Shown: positions 52,230 through 58,488 of the stretch, one piece after another | Layout: each line of letters begins with the position of its first letter | Position numbering within the stretch: position 1 is the stretch's first letter | Assembly: GCF_001813675.1 (NCBI RefSeq) | Contig: NZ_KV813650.1 | Coordinates: 191,114 to 255,113 of the forward strand | Origin: Streptococcus sp. HMSC078D09 | GTDB lineage: Bacteria; Bacillota; Bacilli; Lactobacillales; Streptococcaceae | Direction of reading: 5' to 3' | Length of the DNA: 64,000 bases | Position numbers and translations under genes: made by a program | Notes under the pieces: model-generated | The model's database searches: none | Told to the model about the DNA's origin: nothing | Seen by the model: only the letters and a program-made list of their open reading frames with translations

Positions 52230-52928
52230 ATGATTCCAGCTTACATTCAAATCCATGATCAGATTAAGTCTGAGATTGATCAAAAAATATGGAAAATCGG
52301 GGAGCGTCTTCCCAGCGAACGCGATCTAGCTGAGAAATTTCAAGTGAGTCGGATGACGCTTCGTCAGGCCATTACCCTTCTGGTTGAAGAAGGAGTGCTT
52401 GAAAGACGAGTAGGAAGTGGCACCTTTATTACCAGCACGCGCGTCCAAGAAAAAATGCGAGGCACAACCAGTTTTACAGAAATTATGAAATCGCAAGGCA
52501 AGGAACCTTCTAGTCAAGTGATTTCTTACCGGAAAACCATTCCTAGCCTCCAAGAAGTGGACAAATTGGGCATCGATAAGACCGAAACCATCATTCGGAT
52601 GGAGCGGGTCCGGTATGCTGATGGGATCCCTGTTGTTTATGAAGTGGCCTCTATTCCAGAGAAATTTATTAAGAATTTCAATCGCGAAGAGGTTACCAGC
52701 CATTTCTTCCAAACCTTGGAACGTCATGGCTATAAGATTGGAAAATCGCATCAGACAATCTATGCTCGATTAGCCAAAGATAAGATTGCGGACTATTTAC
52801 AGATTTCAAAAGGACAGGCTATTTTAGGTCTGACACAGGTTTCCTATTTTGAAGATGGGACGGCTTTTGAGTATGTAAAAAGTCAGTATGTCGGTGAGCG
52901 GTTCGAATTTTATTTGGAAAATAACTAA
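52230..52928 (+). CDS. GntR/HutC-family transcriptional regulator
   Basis: A 232-residue regulator with an N-terminal winged helix (WKIGERLPSERDLAEKFQVSRMTLRQAITLLVEEGVLERRVGSGTFI) and a C-terminal UTRA ligand domain (RMERVRYADGIPVVYEVASIP). It resembles NagR/YvoA-like repressors for amino-sugar phosphates, but the ligand is not determined. It is regularly found next to guaA in streptococci. It could also control the biosynthetic operon that follows 240 bases later, though a GntR site there is not evident. Confidence 0.88.
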   Translation: MIPAYIQIHDQIKSEIDQKIWKIGERLPSERDLAEKFQVSRMTLRQAITLLVEEGVLERRVGSGTFITSTRVQEKMRGTTSFTEIMKSQGKEPSSQVISYRKTIPSLQEVDKLGIDKTETIIRMERVRYADGIPVVYEVASIPEKFIKNFNREEVTSHFFQTLERHGYKIGKSHQTIYARLAKDKIADYLQISKGQAILGLTQVSYFEDGTAFEYVKSQYVGERFEFYLENN

Positions 52929-52953
52929 GCTCGCAATTCACAGTAATAAAAAA

Positions 52954-53007
52954 ACTCTTCAAATGTTTGGGAGACTTTCTCTCTTTGGCATTTGGGAGCT
53001 TTTTTTT
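52954..53007 (+). terminator. Terminator after the GntR gene
   Basis: Imperfect stem ctcttcaaatg/catttgggag closing a larger loop, followed by eight T residues. Confidence 0.7.
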
Positions 53008-53044
53008 GGTTGAAGTCATTCTTTCTAAATAGTGATAGTACGGT

Positions 53045-53166: not shown

Positions 53167-54444
53167 ATGAAAAAAATTAAAATCGATGTGGTAGCTGTTC
53201 CCTTGAGTGGGCATCTGTACCCAACTTTAAATCTCGTTAAACCCTTATTAGATGATCCTTCGATGGAGATCCGGGTTTTCACAGGACCTCAGAAAAAGGC
53301 CGTTACAGAAAGTCTTGGCTTCACTGTCGTTCCGATTCTAGAGGACAAAGTAGAAGAATTTGAACGTGCGGCGAATAACGATAAGAAACTCAATCTCTTT
53401 TCAGCTTATCGGCAATTGTCCAAAAGTCTTGATTTGATTAATCATGTATCAGATCAATTGCTAGAGGAGTGGTGCGTCAATCGTCCAGATATTGTCATTG
53501 CTGATTTTATCACTCTATCAGCTGGCTTTGTGGCAGAAGAGTTAGAAATTCCTTGGATTACCACAATGGCAACCCAATTTGTAATCGAAACTCCTTATGG
53601 TCCTCCTTGCTTCTTCGGAGGGATGGGAGTCGCGCGCACGAAGAAGGAAGAGAAGATACAGGCACTATGCCGTAAACTCACGCGCATTGGAAAATACTGT
53701 GGCGCTTTCCTCTTATGCAAACGCTTAAAACGTTACAATTTCAAGTTGTACAATCAAAATGGAGTGGAGACCATCTACTCTCCTTATGCTATCTTTGGAA
53801 TTGGTATGATGGAGCTGGAGTTGAAAACACACTTCCCTCATCAATATGCCTGGCTTGGCCCTTTGGGGACTTCTATTGAAAAAGCAGAAGATTATCCTTT
53901 AGATCTCAGTCCTTACGAGGACAAGACGAAGGTACTCGTGACATGTGGAACCCAGTTGCCTTGGGCAAAAGAGAACTTGCTCCAGCAAACCCAGCAGTTG
54001 GCCAAAGACCATCCAGAATGCCACTTTTTCGTCACCTTAGGAGATGGGGCAAAGAAATTCTCTGAAGAAGAAGTAGCGCCAAATGTGACGGTCGTCTCTT
54101 ATCTACCTTACAAAGAATATATTCCGCAGATGGACTATGTCATTCACCATGGAGGAGCTGGAATCTTTTATCAGTGTATTGAATTTAAAAAACCAGCCTT
54201 GATCTTGCCACATGATTATGACCAATTTGACTATGCGATTCGAGGAGTAGAAGCAGGAATTGCTTTTCAAGCTCATCGCAATCGCACCGAAGAGATTCAA
54301 GCAGGTTTTAAGGCTCTATTAGAAAAAGAATCTTGGCAAAAGTTAGAAAGACTAAACAAACTTTCAAAAACCTACAAGCCGTTGGATACCTTGGAGTTTG
54401 AGATTCAACGATTATTAAGACGTGGAACGGATGGGAAACTATGA
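53167..54444 (+). CDS. UGT/MGT-like glycosyltransferase (GT-B), gene 1 of lipid-pathway-like operon
   Basis: A 425-residue GT-B enzyme of the macrolide/UDP-glycosyltransferase type: the N-terminal VAVPLSGHLYPTLNLVKPLL (acceptor-binding His) and the C-terminal donor motif HHGGAGIFYQCIEFKKPALILP followed by DQFDYA. It has no signal peptide. These enzymes move a sugar from a nucleotide sugar to a small hydrophobic acceptor such as a lipid alcohol, sterol or polyketide, not to cell-wall polymers. The next gene starts on its stop (ATGA), so it is the first of five coupled genes. Neither acceptor nor sugar is known. Confidence 0.88.
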   Translation: MKKIKIDVVAVPLSGHLYPTLNLVKPLLDDPSMEIRVFTGPQKKAVTESLGFTVVPILEDKVEEFERAANNDKKLNLFSAYRQLSKSLDLINHVSDQLLEEWCVNRPDIVIADFITLSAGFVAEELEIPWITTMATQFVIETPYGPPCFFGGMGVARTKKEEKIQALCRKLTRIGKYCGAFLLCKRLKRYNFKLYNQNGVETIYSPYAIFGIGMMELELKTHFPHQYAWLGPLGTSIEKAEDYPLDLSPYEDKTKVLVTCGTQLPWAKENLLQQTQQLAKDHPECHFFVTLGDGAKKFSEEEVAPNVTVVSYLPYKEYIPQMDYVIHHGGAGIFYQCIEFKKPALILPHDYDQFDYAIRGVEAGIAFQAHRNRTEEIQAGFKALLEKESWQKLERLNKLSKTYKPLDTLEFEIQRLLRRGTDGKL

Positions 54445-55409
54445 AAATTCTTGTAACAGGTGCGACTGGCTTCCTTGGAAAATATGTGATCGATGAGTTG
54501 TTGGCTCACGATTATTCCATTGTAGCCTTTGGCCGAAACGAAAAAATTGGTAAGGCTATGGAAAGTGAGCGCGTTCAATTTGTGAAAGGGGATTTGAGCT
54601 CTATTGAGGAATTAAAACAAGCCTTTCAGTCTGTTGATGCTGTGGTTCACGCTGGAGCTTTATCCACTGCCTGGGGACCTTGGAAGGCCTTCTATCAGGC
54701 GAATGTAGTTGGTACTCAAAATGTCCTTGACTTGTGCCGTGAATATGCGGTAAAACGCTTGGTTTACGTATCTTCTCCCAGTATTTACGCAGCTGGAAAA
54801 GACCAATTAAACATCAAGGAAAGCGATGCTCCAACAGAAAATCACCTCAACAATTACATCCGAAGTAAATTGGCGTCTGAAAAACTTTTTTCTGACTATC
54901 CGGATGTGCCAAGTATCATCTTGCGTCCTAGAGGATTATTTGGTGTGGGGGATACCAGTATTTTACCTCGTGTCTTACGCCTCAGTCGAAAAATTGGAAT
55001 TCCTTTGATTCGAGGAGGAGAGCAGCTCATGGATATGACCTGTGTGGAAAATGTCGCCCTAGCCATTCGCTTGGCTCTGGAAGCAAAAGAAGCTCACGGA
55101 CAAGTATATAATATTACAAATGGGGAACCAAAGACCTTTAAGTATTTGATCGAAACCACACTAAAAGGATTGGGAGAGCCGATTCGCTATCGGAAAATTC
55201 CAGCAGGTCTTGTAGCAGGTGTGGCTTATAGCCTTGAAGGGGTGTATCGATTCTTTCATCTGAAAGCTGAACCCCCGTTGACTCGCTATACCTATTATCT
55301 CCTTCGATATAGCCAAACTCTCGATATTCAAAAGGCCCAAACAGAACTTGGCTACTATCCAAAAATGACCATTGAAGAAGGGATTGACAACTATGTCCAA
55401 CATGATTAA
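54441..55409 (+). CDS. NAD(P)-dependent extended SDR (3-beta-HSD/OleD-like), gene 2
   Basis: A 322-residue extended short-chain dehydrogenase: Rossmann motif TGATGFLG (6-13), VVHAGALSTAWGPW, catalytic Ser in YVSSPSIYA, and YxxxK at Y139/K143 (YIRSK). The GALSTAWGPW segment recalls the AA..WG pattern of 3-beta-hydroxysteroid dehydrogenase-like reductases, the family of OleD, which reduces the beta-keto acid in bacterial olefin synthesis. Probable role: ketone/alcohol interconversion on the operon's product. Overlaps the genes on both sides. Confidence 0.88.
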   Translation: MKILVTGATGFLGKYVIDELLAHDYSIVAFGRNEKIGKAMESERVQFVKGDLSSIEELKQAFQSVDAVVHAGALSTAWGPWKAFYQANVVGTQNVLDLCREYAVKRLVYVSSPSIYAAGKDQLNIKESDAPTENHLNNYIRSKLASEKLFSDYPDVPSIILRPRGLFGVGDTSILPRVLRLSRKIGIPLIRGGEQLMDMTCVENVALAIRLALEAKEAHGQVYNITNGEPKTFKYLIETTLKGLGEPIRYRKIPAGLVAGVAYSLEGVYRFFHLKAEPPLTRYTYYLLRYSQTLDIQKAQTELGYYPKMTIEEGIDNYVQHD

Positions 55410-56220
55410 GCGCATTGATTATTTCCCAGCAGGCTATTGTAGTAGTCATTCTGGTCTCTTATTTAAAGGGATTCCGAATGAAAAAATGCAATTTCCAGCA
55501 GGTGTCTTTTTGATTCATCACCGTGAAAAAGGCTATATTTTGTACGATACCGGCTATCACTACGAGATTAAGAAAAAAGCTCGGTATTTCTGGTACCGTC
55601 TAGCCACCCCAATGCAGATGAAAAAAGAAGACCAGATCGATTATTTATTGCAAGAGCGTGGGATTGATCCAGCAGAAATTACTTATGTGATTCTTTCTCA
55701 TTTGCACCCTGATCATCTCGGTGGAGCAGCCCTTTTTCCAAATGCTCATTTCTTTGTCAGTCAGGAAGTCTATGAGGTGTACCAAAAACCGAAATTTAAA
55801 GATCTAATTTTTAAAGAGTTTTTGCCAGCTGATTTCAAGGATCGGGTGACTTGTCTCAAAGCAAATCAAAGGCATCCTGCTTTCCCTTACCGCCCGACTG
55901 CGGATCTTTTTGGGGATGGGAGCATTCTTGTTTCGTCCATCGATGGGCATGCGAGAGGGCAAGGCTGTCTTTATCTGGATGAGCTCAAGCTCTTTATTGG
56001 AGCAGATCTTTCTTGGGGAGTAGACCTCTTGCCTTACACATGGCAAATGCGACTGATTCCTTCCTTGGTTCAGGATGATAAGAAGGCTTATCTTAAAGGA
56101 GCTGATTTGCTGGAAACACTCTTGCAAGAGGGTATTCAAGTTGTTGTCAGCCACGACCCGCAAGAACGGATTGAAAGGATTTTAAATGAAAAAAACAGTC
56201 TTTCTGAAAACCTTTATTGA
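55393..56220 (+). CDS. Metallo-beta-lactamase-fold hydrolase, gene 3
   Basis: A 275-residue MBL-fold enzyme with the metal motif HLHPDH (103-108), DTG at about 52-54, the third-site histidine in DGHARGQG and the bridging Asp in GADLSWG, ending SHDPQE. These fit a two-metal lactonase/esterase such as AHL-lactonase-like enzymes. The start is uncertain: ATG at 55393 has GAAGGG nine bases upstream, while ATGs at 55372 and 55402 are alternatives. It overlaps gene 2 and gene 4. It may hydrolyse a lactone or thioester in the pathway. Confidence 0.85.
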   Translation: MSNMIKRIDYFPAGYCSSHSGLLFKGIPNEKMQFPAGVFLIHHREKGYILYDTGYHYEIKKKARYFWYRLATPMQMKKEDQIDYLLQERGIDPAEITYVILSHLHPDHLGGAALFPNAHFFVSQEVYEVYQKPKFKDLIFKEFLPADFKDRVTCLKANQRHPAFPYRPTADLFGDGSILVSSIDGHARGQGCLYLDELKLFIGADLSWGVDLLPYTWQMRLIPSLVQDDKKAYLKGADLLETLLQEGIQVVVSHDPQERIERILNEKNSLSENLY

Positions 56221-57451
56221 AACCAGATGGTGCCACCGATTCCGTTCAAAAGAGGCCTTGAAGCGATACCAAGATAAGCAATTGGCACGCTACCATGCAT
56301 TTATCACTTCTCAATCTCCCTATTTTCAAACCCATTCTCCCGAATCCTTTGGAACAATGGATAAAACCTTCATGATGACACATTTCAATGAACTCAATAC
56401 CCTAGGGGTGGATCGAGATCAGGCTTTAGAAATGGCGATTCGCGGAGAACAGACGCGAGATTTTACTGAGATGAATGGAGAATTAGCAGTAGGCTTGTCT
56501 TCTGGGACTTCAGGCCACCGAGGAGTTTTTGTCACCACAGAAAAAGAAAGAAGCATGTGGGCTGCAGCGATCTTAGCCAAGATGCTGCCAAAAGGAAAAC
56601 TCTTTGGTCATCGCATTGCCTTTTTCTTACGAGCGGACAATGAACTCTATCAAACCATTAATTCAGGCCTTATCCGATTGGAATATTTTGATATTTTCAA
56701 GGATAGCAAGGAGAATTTAGAGCGTCTCAAAGACTATCAACCAACCATTGTAGTCGCACCAGCTTCGACCTTGATTGAGTTAGCTAACTATGTCAGCAAT
56801 CAGCAACTTGAGATTCAACCTGTCAAGGTTGTCTCTGTCGCAGAGATCCTAGAAGATCGAGATGCTCAGACCATCGCCAAAGCTTTTCAACTAGACAAGG
56901 TTGATCAGGTCTACCAAGCGACAGAGGGATTTTTAGCTTGTACCTGTTCAGAAGGCAATCTACATTTTAACGAAGATATTTTGTATGTCGAAAAAGAGTA
57001 TCTTGATGATAGCCGCTTTTATCCGATTATTACGGATTTCAAACGAACGAGTCAACCCATCTATCGCTACCGACTCAATGATATTCTGGTGGAAGAAAAG
57101 TCCCCTTGTCCTTGTGGCTCCATCTTTACTCTAATCGCAAAGATCGAAGGACGATCAGATGATATCTTCTATTTCAAAAAAGAAGATGGCAGTAGCCAGA
57201 TGATCTATCCGGATTTTATTCGACGGTGCATTCTCTTTGTCGAAAATATTCAGGACTATCAAGTAACTCAGTTGGCAGATGGATCCATTACCATTGCCTT
57301 GAGTCACCGGACAGAGTCTATGGAGCAAGCGATCTTTACTCAATTTGAACTCTTAGCTCAGCAAAAACAATTCATTCTCCCAAGTATTCTATTTATCGAT
57401 TACCAATGGGACTCAACACGTAAATTAAAACGTGTTCAACGACTTCAATAA
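56186..57451 (+). CDS. Adenylate-forming enzyme (PaaK/CapK-like, F390-synthetase-related), gene 4
   Basis: A 421-residue ANL-superfamily protein of the phenylacetate-CoA-ligase/CapK branch. It has the phosphate loop LSSGTSGHRGVF (104-115), YQATEG (243-248), YRYRLNDI (293-300), a CPCG motif (308-311) as in CapK/PaaK relatives, the hinge-like EGRSDD (321-326) and a final lysine cluster (TRKLKRVQR). It resembles the family annotated as F390 synthetase-related/putative adenylate-forming enzyme. It should activate a carboxylate as acyl-AMP; the acceptor is unknown. The start is in the last 35 bases of gene 3. Confidence 0.85.
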   Translation: MKKTVFLKTFIETRWCHRFRSKEALKRYQDKQLARYHAFITSQSPYFQTHSPESFGTMDKTFMMTHFNELNTLGVDRDQALEMAIRGEQTRDFTEMNGELAVGLSSGTSGHRGVFVTTEKERSMWAAAILAKMLPKGKLFGHRIAFFLRADNELYQTINSGLIRLEYFDIFKDSKENLERLKDYQPTIVVAPASTLIELANYVSNQQLEIQPVKVVSVAEILEDRDAQTIAKAFQLDKVDQVYQATEGFLACTCSEGNLHFNEDILYVEKEYLDDSRFYPIITDFKRTSQPIYRYRLNDILVEEKSPCPCGSIFTLIAKIEGRSDDIFYFKKEDGSSQMIYPDFIRRCILFVENIQDYQVTQLADGSITIALSHRTESMEQAIFTQFELLAQQKQFILPSILFIDYQWDSTRKLKRVQRLQ

Positions 57452-57463
57452 AAGGAGAATCCT

Positions 57464-58408
57464 ATGACTACCGTAAAAAGACATTTGCAAATTAAAGGCT
57501 ATGGAACAGCGCTTCCAGCTCATACAGTAACTTTCAAAGACCAGACTCGTTACCGCGTGAAAGAAGGAGAAGAAACACAGATTGATCTTGCAGCGCGTGC
57601 GATTGAGGCAGCTTTAAAACATGCAGGACTTGATATGACAGACATCGACTGCCTGATTTCTGCTAGTGCGGTTGGTGTTCAGCCCATTCCTTGTACAGCA
57701 GCTCTTATACATGAGCGCGTGGCCAAGGGACTGACGATTCCTGCTATGGATATCAATACCACTTGTACCAGTTTTGTATCAGCTTTGAGCACTGTTTCTT
57801 ATCTGATTGAAGGTGGTGAATACCAACGGGTTCTGATTGTATCCAGTGAAGTAGGAAGCCTAGGGCTTAATCCCAAACAAAAAGAAAGCTTTGAACTGTT
57901 TAGCGATGGCGCTGCAGCCTTTATTTTTGAAGCAACAAAGGAAGATAAAGGAATCATTGCCAGTATGCAACGTACCTGGTCTGAGGGAGCCCACGATACC
58001 GAAATTCGTGGTGGTTTGACAGCTTATCATCCGAAATTGTACTCTGAAGCAACCAAGACTGATTTCATGTTTGACATGAAAGGGAAGAAAATTCTTTTGC
58101 TTTCTGCCCGTGTTATTCCAGAAATGTTCCAAAAATTCCAAGAAAAATCAGGCATTTCTAAAGATGCTGTTGACTATATTATTCCCCACCAAGCAAGTCG
58201 CGCTTTGCCACTCGTCATGGATAAATTGGGAGTTAGCAAAGACAAGTACCTCAATATTGTCAGTGATTATGGAAATATGGTTTCGGTAGCCGTGCCTTTC
58301 GGCCTAGCCTATGCACTGGATCATGGCTATGTGAAGGAAGGAGATACCATCTTCTTGATGGGAACTGCAGCAGGGATGACGGTCAATATGTTGGCACTGA
58401 AACTTTAA
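57464..58408 (+). CDS. KAS III-like (FabH/OleA-type) condensing enzyme, gene 5
   Basis: A 314-residue thiolase-fold enzyme with the complete KAS III triad: Cys101 (INTTCTSF), His242 (IIPHQASRA) and Asn271 (DYGNMVSVAVP). It is not the housekeeping FabH, which lies in the fab cluster elsewhere in streptococci, and its surroundings differ. Relatives condense acyl-CoA/ACP with malonyl-ACP or, as OleA, join two acyl-CoAs head to head. AAAAGGAGAATCC precedes the ATG. It closes the operon, with a strong terminator 40 bases on. Confidence 0.88.
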   Translation: MTTVKRHLQIKGYGTALPAHTVTFKDQTRYRVKEGEETQIDLAARAIEAALKHAGLDMTDIDCLISASAVGVQPIPCTAALIHERVAKGLTIPAMDINTTCTSFVSALSTVSYLIEGGEYQRVLIVSSEVGSLGLNPKQKESFELFSDGAAAFIFEATKEDKGIIASMQRTWSEGAHDTEIRGGLTAYHPKLYSEATKTDFMFDMKGKKILLLSARVIPEMFQKFQEKSGISKDAVDYIIPHQASRALPLVMDKLGVSKDKYLNIVSDYGNMVSVAVPFGLAYALDHGYVKEGDTIFLMGTAAGMTVNMLALKL

Positions 58409-58447
58409 TGATGAATCCTCTTACTTCAAGCTCAAAAAGCATCAAGT

Positions 58448-58473
58448 CCCGCTAGTCTTTAGCGGGCTTTTTT
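58448..58473 (+). terminator. Terminator of the biosynthetic operon
   Basis: Stem cccgcta/tagcggg with loop gtctt and TTTTTT. The T run merges into the extended -10 of ylxM. Confidence 0.92.
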
Positions 58474-58488
58474 GATATAATGAAAGGT
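58473..58488 (+). promoter_or_regulatory. Extended -10 promoter of ylxM (leaderless)
   Basis: TGATATAAT, with the -10 hexamer at 58476-58481, ends seven bases before the family-typical ATG at 58489, so the message would begin at the start codon. The region of a -35 lies inside the preceding terminator stem and is poor (TAGTCT). Confidence 0.6.

Follow-up and report, generated by a model that had tools for sequence, protein, structure and literature searches.

A four-gene core shared across phyla, with exchangeable tailoring genes, in a streptococcal operon that may direct synthesis of a glycosylated hydroxyacyl lipid

Within a 64,000-nucleotide stretch of Streptococcus sp. HMSC078D09 (contig NZ_KV813650.1, positions 191,114 to 255,113 of the forward strand; referred to here as the window), positions 53,167 to 58,408 carry a five-gene operon encoding a glycosyltransferase (GT), a short-chain dehydrogenase/reductase (SDR), a metallo-beta-lactamase (MBL)-fold hydrolase, an adenylate-forming enzyme related to F390 synthetase and a beta-ketoacyl-acyl carrier protein synthase III (KAS III)-type condensing enzyme. 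Comparative sequence analysis showed that the last four constitute a conserved functional module, co-inherited across phyla with intact active sites, and that the GT is an optional, lineage-specific add-on, which elsewhere is missing, degenerate or exchanged for other genes. On balance, we favour a reading of the operon as a biosynthetic unit in which the four-enzyme core and one tailoring enzyme would yield a glycosylated beta-hydroxyacyl lipid.

Calling of open reading frames (ORFs) in the window gave five intact ORFs, all on the + strand, which follow one another head to tail with overlaps of 4, 17 and 35 bp and one gap of 12 bp, exactly as an initial annotation made from the DNA letters had described. 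The family calls of that annotation for the five proteins were upheld by matches to Pfam and NCBIfam models, and its two flanking terminators both fold strongly, with none of 200 shuffles as stable as the native hairpin at either end. The operon arrangement is far beyond chance. The MBL ORF has an ATG start at 55393, and its open frame reaches 5′ to a TTG at 55372. The features are:

52945 to 53010, + strand: Rho-independent terminator 5′ of the operon and 3′ of a GntR gene (hairpin −20.3 kcal/mol, z −3.8, then a T run)
53167 to 54444, + strand: MGT/UGT-type glycosyltransferase, 425 aa (Pfam EryCIII-like_C, Glyco_tran_28_C); tailoring gene outside the conserved core
54441 to 55409, + strand: core gene 1, extended SDR of the OleD/3beta-HSD type, 322 aa (Pfam Epimerase/3Beta_HSD)
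55393 to 56220, + strand: core gene 2, MBL-fold hydrolase, 275 aa (Pfam Lactamase_B)
56186 to 57451, + strand: core gene 3, F390-synthetase-related, PaaK-like adenylate-forming enzyme, 421 aa (TIGR02304)
57464 to 58408, + strand: core gene 4, KAS III-type condensing enzyme, 314 aa (Pfam ACP_syn_III, ACP_syn_III_C)
58440 to 58480, + strand: Rho-independent terminator 3′ of the operon (hairpin −13.6 kcal/mol, z −4.1)

The distribution of the core (SDR, MBL-fold hydrolase, F390-related adenylating enzyme and KAS III) was followed in 31 loci picked for carrying the adenylating gene; beyond Bacillota, the counts cover plasmid and E. coli records only. The core is complete, on one strand and within 4-6 kb in 30 of the 30 complete loci, a figure that is not a number of independent events because the loci were selected by the adenylating gene and several are closely related; in the remaining locus, three core genes are followed by the contig end. 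The initial annotation had treated the operon as a unit, to be doubted if its homologues proved scattered, and in every complete locus the partners were found together. The loci come from Streptococcus, other Lactobacillales, Paenibacillus, Pontibacillus, Fusobacterium, E. coli, Burkholderia, Paraburkholderia, Pseudomonas, Paracoccus, Ketogulonicigenium, Rhizobium and Shinella, and so span Bacillota, Fusobacteria and alpha-, beta- and gammaproteobacteria (at least three phyla). The order SDR-MBL-F390-KAS is found mostly in Lactobacillales and Fusobacterium, the order KAS-SDR-MBL-F390 in Proteobacteria, Paenibacillus and Pontibacillus, and the order SDR-KAS-MBL-F390 in one locus.

Among 147 Streptococcus genomes, the adenylating gene is present in 40 and its MBL partner (E <= 9e-81) in exactly the same 40; a 41st MBL match (genome G020) is a remote relative (30%). 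The core occupies at least three places in Streptococcus (GntR/ylxM-ffh; alcohol dehydrogenase/cardiolipin synthase-like; rpsD/TetR), and these differing chromosomal neighbours indicate that it has moved as a block. Of 5,426 complete E. coli genomes, 674 have a version of it between narI and purU. On two Pseudomonas megaplasmids with a seemingly lone F390 gene, all four core genes lie within about 20 kb; in both plasmids, pBASL58 and pMPPla107, the core is split, apparently by inserted genes, and the matching of the SDR as two pieces in pBASL58 suggests core decay there. A low-scoring match (290 bits) in a metagenome-assembled genome has no core partners on its short contig, and this adenylating protein may represent another subfamily.

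The genes that accompany the core differ between lineages. S. rubneri, S. australis and a third relative retain an intact core beside a GT reduced to differing fragments (the C-terminal 84 residues, the N-terminal 65 residues, and a pair of N- and C-terminal pieces); three distinct deletion remnants point to independent, ongoing loss. These remnants are located at:

L050, 5793 to 6253: GT remnant beside an intact core
L051, 6050 to 6238: GT remnant beside an intact core
L052, 5907 to 6158: GT remnant beside an intact core

Likewise, the rpsD-adjacent streptococcal group has the core without a GT, and one Streptococcus genome (G033) has an ATP-grasp gene and a GNAT-like gene in its place. The initial annotation had described a streptococcal set of five genes; with the GT absent or decayed in several streptococci, the unit is instead the four-gene core found in the phyla above. 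GT21 and MGT genes accompany the core in other Lactobacillales and in one Streptococcus (G130), whose longer set comprises a short SDR, a GT21, a 211-aa protein and an MGT. PAP2, an OlsE-like hydroxylase and an acyl-CoA desaturase join it in Burkholderia stagnalis and at the E. coli narI-purU locus (L136, 3001 to 9882). ATP-grasp and/or GNAT genes, with or without a Rieske protein, are found with it in Paenibacillus, Pontibacillus, Paraburkholderia, Rhizobium and Shinella, a divergent sulfotransferase and a TetR gene in Paracoccus and Ketogulonicigenium, and a DUF3419 gene in one Rhizobium. In none of the 32 loci compared do MGT/GT21 and ATP-grasp/GNAT genes occur together. The GT of the operon probably adds a sugar, and the same backbone would appear to be given a different polar group in other lineages.

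Two recurrent accessory groups were also observed. A short SDR, a GT21, a protein of about 211 aa of no known family and, except in Fusobacterium, an MGT lie directly 5′ of the core as a longer, glycolipid-like set. GNAT-like proteins of about 380-530 aa, blank in Pfam, are tied to the core and usually stand beside an ATP-grasp gene of the PRK06849 type.

L122, 10182 to 14040: short SDR, GT21, ~211-aa protein and MGT set
L123, 1832 to 5652: the same type of set
L118, 601 to 4365: the same type of set
L037, 3231 to 5831: the same type of set
L114, 2666 to 4264: GNAT-like gene
L125, 10467 to 11600: GNAT-like gene
L128, 9285 to 10496: GNAT-like gene

The KAS III has the C101, H242 and N271 triad in all 31 sequences, although this triad, being common to all FabH-like enzymes, is not diagnostic of OleA. 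With 152 bits it stays below the cut-off (292) of the housekeeping FabH model TIGR00747. The genome's own FabH is encoded on another contig, in a fab operon between a MarR-like regulator and the acyl carrier protein (ACP), and is 29% identical to the KAS III; the latter is thus second to a normal FabH and not part of housekeeping fatty acid synthesis. By sequence, its nearest solved relatives are MxnB and CorB (4v2p, E 3e-36; 4yuc, E 8e-34), and PqsC/PqsD-type chains also match. For the SDR, the best NCBIfam model of 54 families is OleD (NF042422), at 219 bits against a cut-off of 580. Its S111, Y139, K143 and R32 are present in 31 of 31 sequences, and R32, positioned after the second Rossmann strand, suggests use of NADP(H); the enzyme is probably an NADP(H)-dependent beta-ketoacyl reductase.

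The adenylating enzyme is a member of TIGR02304 (533 bits, above the curated cut-off of 251.9), gave zero matches in the Pfam search and has PaaK as its best solved relative (4r1l, E 3e-8). Its SxGTSG loop and C-terminal K413 are invariant or nearly so (≥93%) in 31 sequences. The family name denotes mere resemblance to coenzyme F390 synthetase, and F390 chemistry itself was dropped as unlikely, the score against TIGR03335 being 16 bits with a cut-off of 459. The GT gives 62 bits with the macrolide glycosyltransferase model TIGR01426, whose cut-off of 260 it does not reach; its nearest solved chains are YjiC-type UGTs and sterol 3-beta-glucosyltransferases.

The MBL-fold hydrolase is closest to the N-acylhomoserine lactone (AHL) lactonases AttM and AiiA (79 and 55 bits, below the curated cut-offs of 375-390) and is also near 4-pyridoxolactonase. 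The metal ligands H103, H105, D107, H108, H186, D205 and H254 are invariant or nearly so (≥93%) in 31 sequences, and the HxHxDH motif with the dinuclear metal ligands of AHL lactonases is present, as it is in other MBL hydrolases. AlphaFold2 models of the KAS III and the MBL-fold hydrolase were built from seven close relatives; both were poor (mean predicted local confidence, pLDDT, of 43.6 and 56.1, respectively). A fold search with the MBL model, which is weak (pLDDT 56, pTM 0.64), placed PqsE with the top matches, at a TM-score of about 0.4. The hydrolase is probably a thioesterase or a lactonase, and its step could plausibly be modelled on either PqsE-type MBL thioesterases or AHL lactonases. 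The sequence similarity to AHL lactonases is the only observation that speaks for the lactone put forward in the initial annotation, and PqsE-type thioesterases share that fold.

From these assignments we infer each chemical step, the substrates and the order of a glycosylated hydroxyacyl lipid pathway. The KAS III would join an acyl thioester and a second unit, and the SDR would reduce the keto group of the resulting beta-ketoacyl intermediate with NADPH; the MBL-fold hydrolase would then cleave the thioester (or a lactone) to give the free beta-hydroxy acid. The PaaK-like enzyme, with ATP, may activate a carboxylate, either that of the starter fatty acid or that of the released hydroxy acid for onward transfer, and the GT would place a sugar on the free hydroxyl. 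The simplest core product able to accept a sugar, an amino-acid-type group or a sulfate would be a lipid that bears both a carboxyl and a free hydroxyl. In favour of the pathway are the constant company of the four core genes, their invariant catalytic residues, their varied chromosomal sites, the presence of a normal FabH besides this KAS III, the separate occurrence of MGT/GT21 and ATP-grasp/GNAT genes, and accessory genes that point to lipids or hydroxyls (GT21 plus short SDR, OlsE-like hydroxylase, acyl-CoA desaturase, PAP2, sulfotransferase and DUF3419). Several points weigh against this pathway. The operon lacks a carrier protein, so that substrates must come from the ACP or coenzyme A (CoA) pool of the cell; the SDR and the MBL-fold hydrolase belong to promiscuous superfamilies, and, with the GT far under the macrolide cut-off, the acceptor could be a non-lipid. 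The putative lipid- or hydroxyl-directed roles of the accessory genes are read from family names. Moreover, the pairwise distances of the four core families correlate (Pearson 0.93-0.94), but a correlation of about 0.93 is supportive only, because shared species phylogeny also yields it.

The known system closest in logic is OleABCD/oleACD (olefins and beta-lactones, including the lipstatin lst cluster), in which a thiolase/KAS III-fold condensing enzyme, an OleD-type SDR, an adenylate-forming enzyme and a hydrolase are likewise clustered; to this extent the initial annotation, which had compared OleA and OleD plus an adenylating enzyme and a hydrolase with this single operon of lipid/polyketide-type enzymes, was right. 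We nevertheless regard as unlikely an Ole-like route to a two-chain lipid or beta-lactone, in which the KAS III joins two fatty acyl chains head to head; the 2-alkyl-3-keto acid would be reduced by the SDR and turned into a beta-lactone by the adenylating enzyme, the MBL-fold hydrolase would open the lactone and the GT would glycosylate the result. OleD being the best model for the SDR is consistent with such a route, as are MxnB and CorB, which join two acyl chains, being nearest to the KAS III. A glycosyltransferase is also included in the ole cluster of Actinoplanes atraurantiacus (PMC7064751), and the addition of a GT to such chemistry is therefore not itself new. However, the operon fails as a member of the Ole family. 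Glu117 of OleA is reported to be essential for Claisen condensation (PMC7064751), and at this position (OleA letters read from PDB chains) the KAS III sequences have Ile (22) or Leu (9) before a conserved Pro in 31 of 31, and Glu in none, so that the OleA analogy of the initial annotation lacks support at the catalytic level. Furthermore, the SDR is well under the OleD cut-off, the operon has an MBL-fold hydrolase and no OleB (the alpha/beta-hydrolase decarboxylase of the olefin branch), and its PaaK-type adenylating enzyme gave no match to the OleC beta-lactone synthetase. Head-to-head condensation by another mechanism is compatible with the lack of Glu117; the alpha-pyrone ketosynthases MxnB and CorB, like the KAS III here, are without Glu at that position (Val in MxnB), but they end large polyketide synthase (PKS)/non-ribosomal peptide synthetase lines on carrier proteins, and the operon has no PKS genes.

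Somewhat less likely again is a diffusible signal made in the manner of the PqsA/PqsD/PqsBC/PqsE alkylquinolone pathway, which combines KAS III-type condensing enzymes with an adenylating CoA ligase and a thioesterase of the MBL fold. The starting point would be a small acid, aromatic or short, which would be converted to its CoA thioester by the adenylating enzyme, extended by the KAS III, released by the MBL thioesterase, reduced by the SDR and glycosylated. Apart from the SDR, which the Pqs pathway does not have, the enzyme types are the same, the fold matches of the MBL model and the sequence matches of the KAS III include Pqs proteins, and among solved structures the adenylating enzyme is related only to ligases, such as PaaK, that form aryl- or hydroxyacyl-CoA. 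The low pLDDT of the MBL model makes its fold ranking weak, however; the Pqs ligase is from another branch, neither anthranilate nor other aromatic-acid genes are nearby, and the desaturase, OlsE-like hydroxylase and GT21 accessories indicate long-chain lipids. The similarity of the hydrolase to AHL lactonases and 4-pyridoxolactonase, and the often catabolic role of PaaK-type ligases, would also fit a degradative or detoxifying system that opens an imported lactone, ester or glycoside, activates it to a thioester and degrades it with the KAS III and SDR in reverse (thiolase-like). We consider this highly improbable, as KAS III enzymes are biosynthetic, and the core is accompanied by biosynthetic tailoring genes and not by a transporter, dehydratase or acyl-CoA dehydrogenase. 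Bacterial glycolipids of the ceramide, hopanoid or sterol type, made by GT21/UGT enzymes, have in common with the favoured pathway the glycosylation of a lipid hydroxyl. No sphingolipid (serine palmitoyltransferase) or hopanoid genes were found in the loci inspected, and sphingolipid/ceramide synthesis was dropped, the loci having a KAS III core instead of serine palmitoyltransferase.

More tentatively, and beyond the glycosylated product favoured for this operon, the core may define a lipid class, so far undescribed, that is secreted or resides in the membrane and has a backbone derived from KAS III, to which exchangeable modules add a lineage-specific polar group (a sugar, a sulfate, an amino-acid type or another); as part of the same proposal, the class would be common to oral streptococci, enterococcus-like bacteria, fusobacteria, about one in eight complete E. 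coli genomes and soil proteobacteria. Pathways of KAS III, SDR, adenylation and hydrolase are of a known kind; the cross-phylum core and exchangeable tailoring are what is unusual here. A search of open-access papers, with subscription papers and preprints outside its scope, gave nothing on the cluster, the F390-type family names, the accessory combinations, the function of TIGR02304 or that of the E. coli narI-purU version. The cluster is provisionally taken to be undescribed, and the view of the initial annotation that no product has been defined agrees with this literature, although the E. coli version is common enough to have been noticed earlier elsewhere. If the proposal is correct, a single odd streptococcal operon becomes a general pathway whose variants predict the head group of each lineage, TIGR02304, a family named by resemblance alone, gains a function, and common human oral and gut bacteria carry a further lipid on their surface or in their secretions.

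Upstream of the operon, a GntR/UTRA regulator gene (52230 to 52928) adjoins guaA and precedes the upstream terminator. It was dropped as a dedicated regulator, given this position beside guaA and before the terminator and its absence beside the core at other sites in the genus. A phage or defence role was likewise dropped: none of the five proteins matched the anti-phage defence profiles of PADLOC, and there was one weak, partial phage match.

The host falls within the Streptococcus parasanguinis group: the named contigs nearest to it are from S. parasanguinis, with an adenylating enzyme 95-98% identical. When the five genes were compared with those of strains of this group, 14 of 15 pairings gave ratios of non-synonymous to synonymous substitution (dN/dS) of about 0.04-0.13; the one outlier, KAS III against L039 (0.29), has a dS of just 0.009 and is hence uninformative. 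By these ratios, all five genes are under purifying selection.

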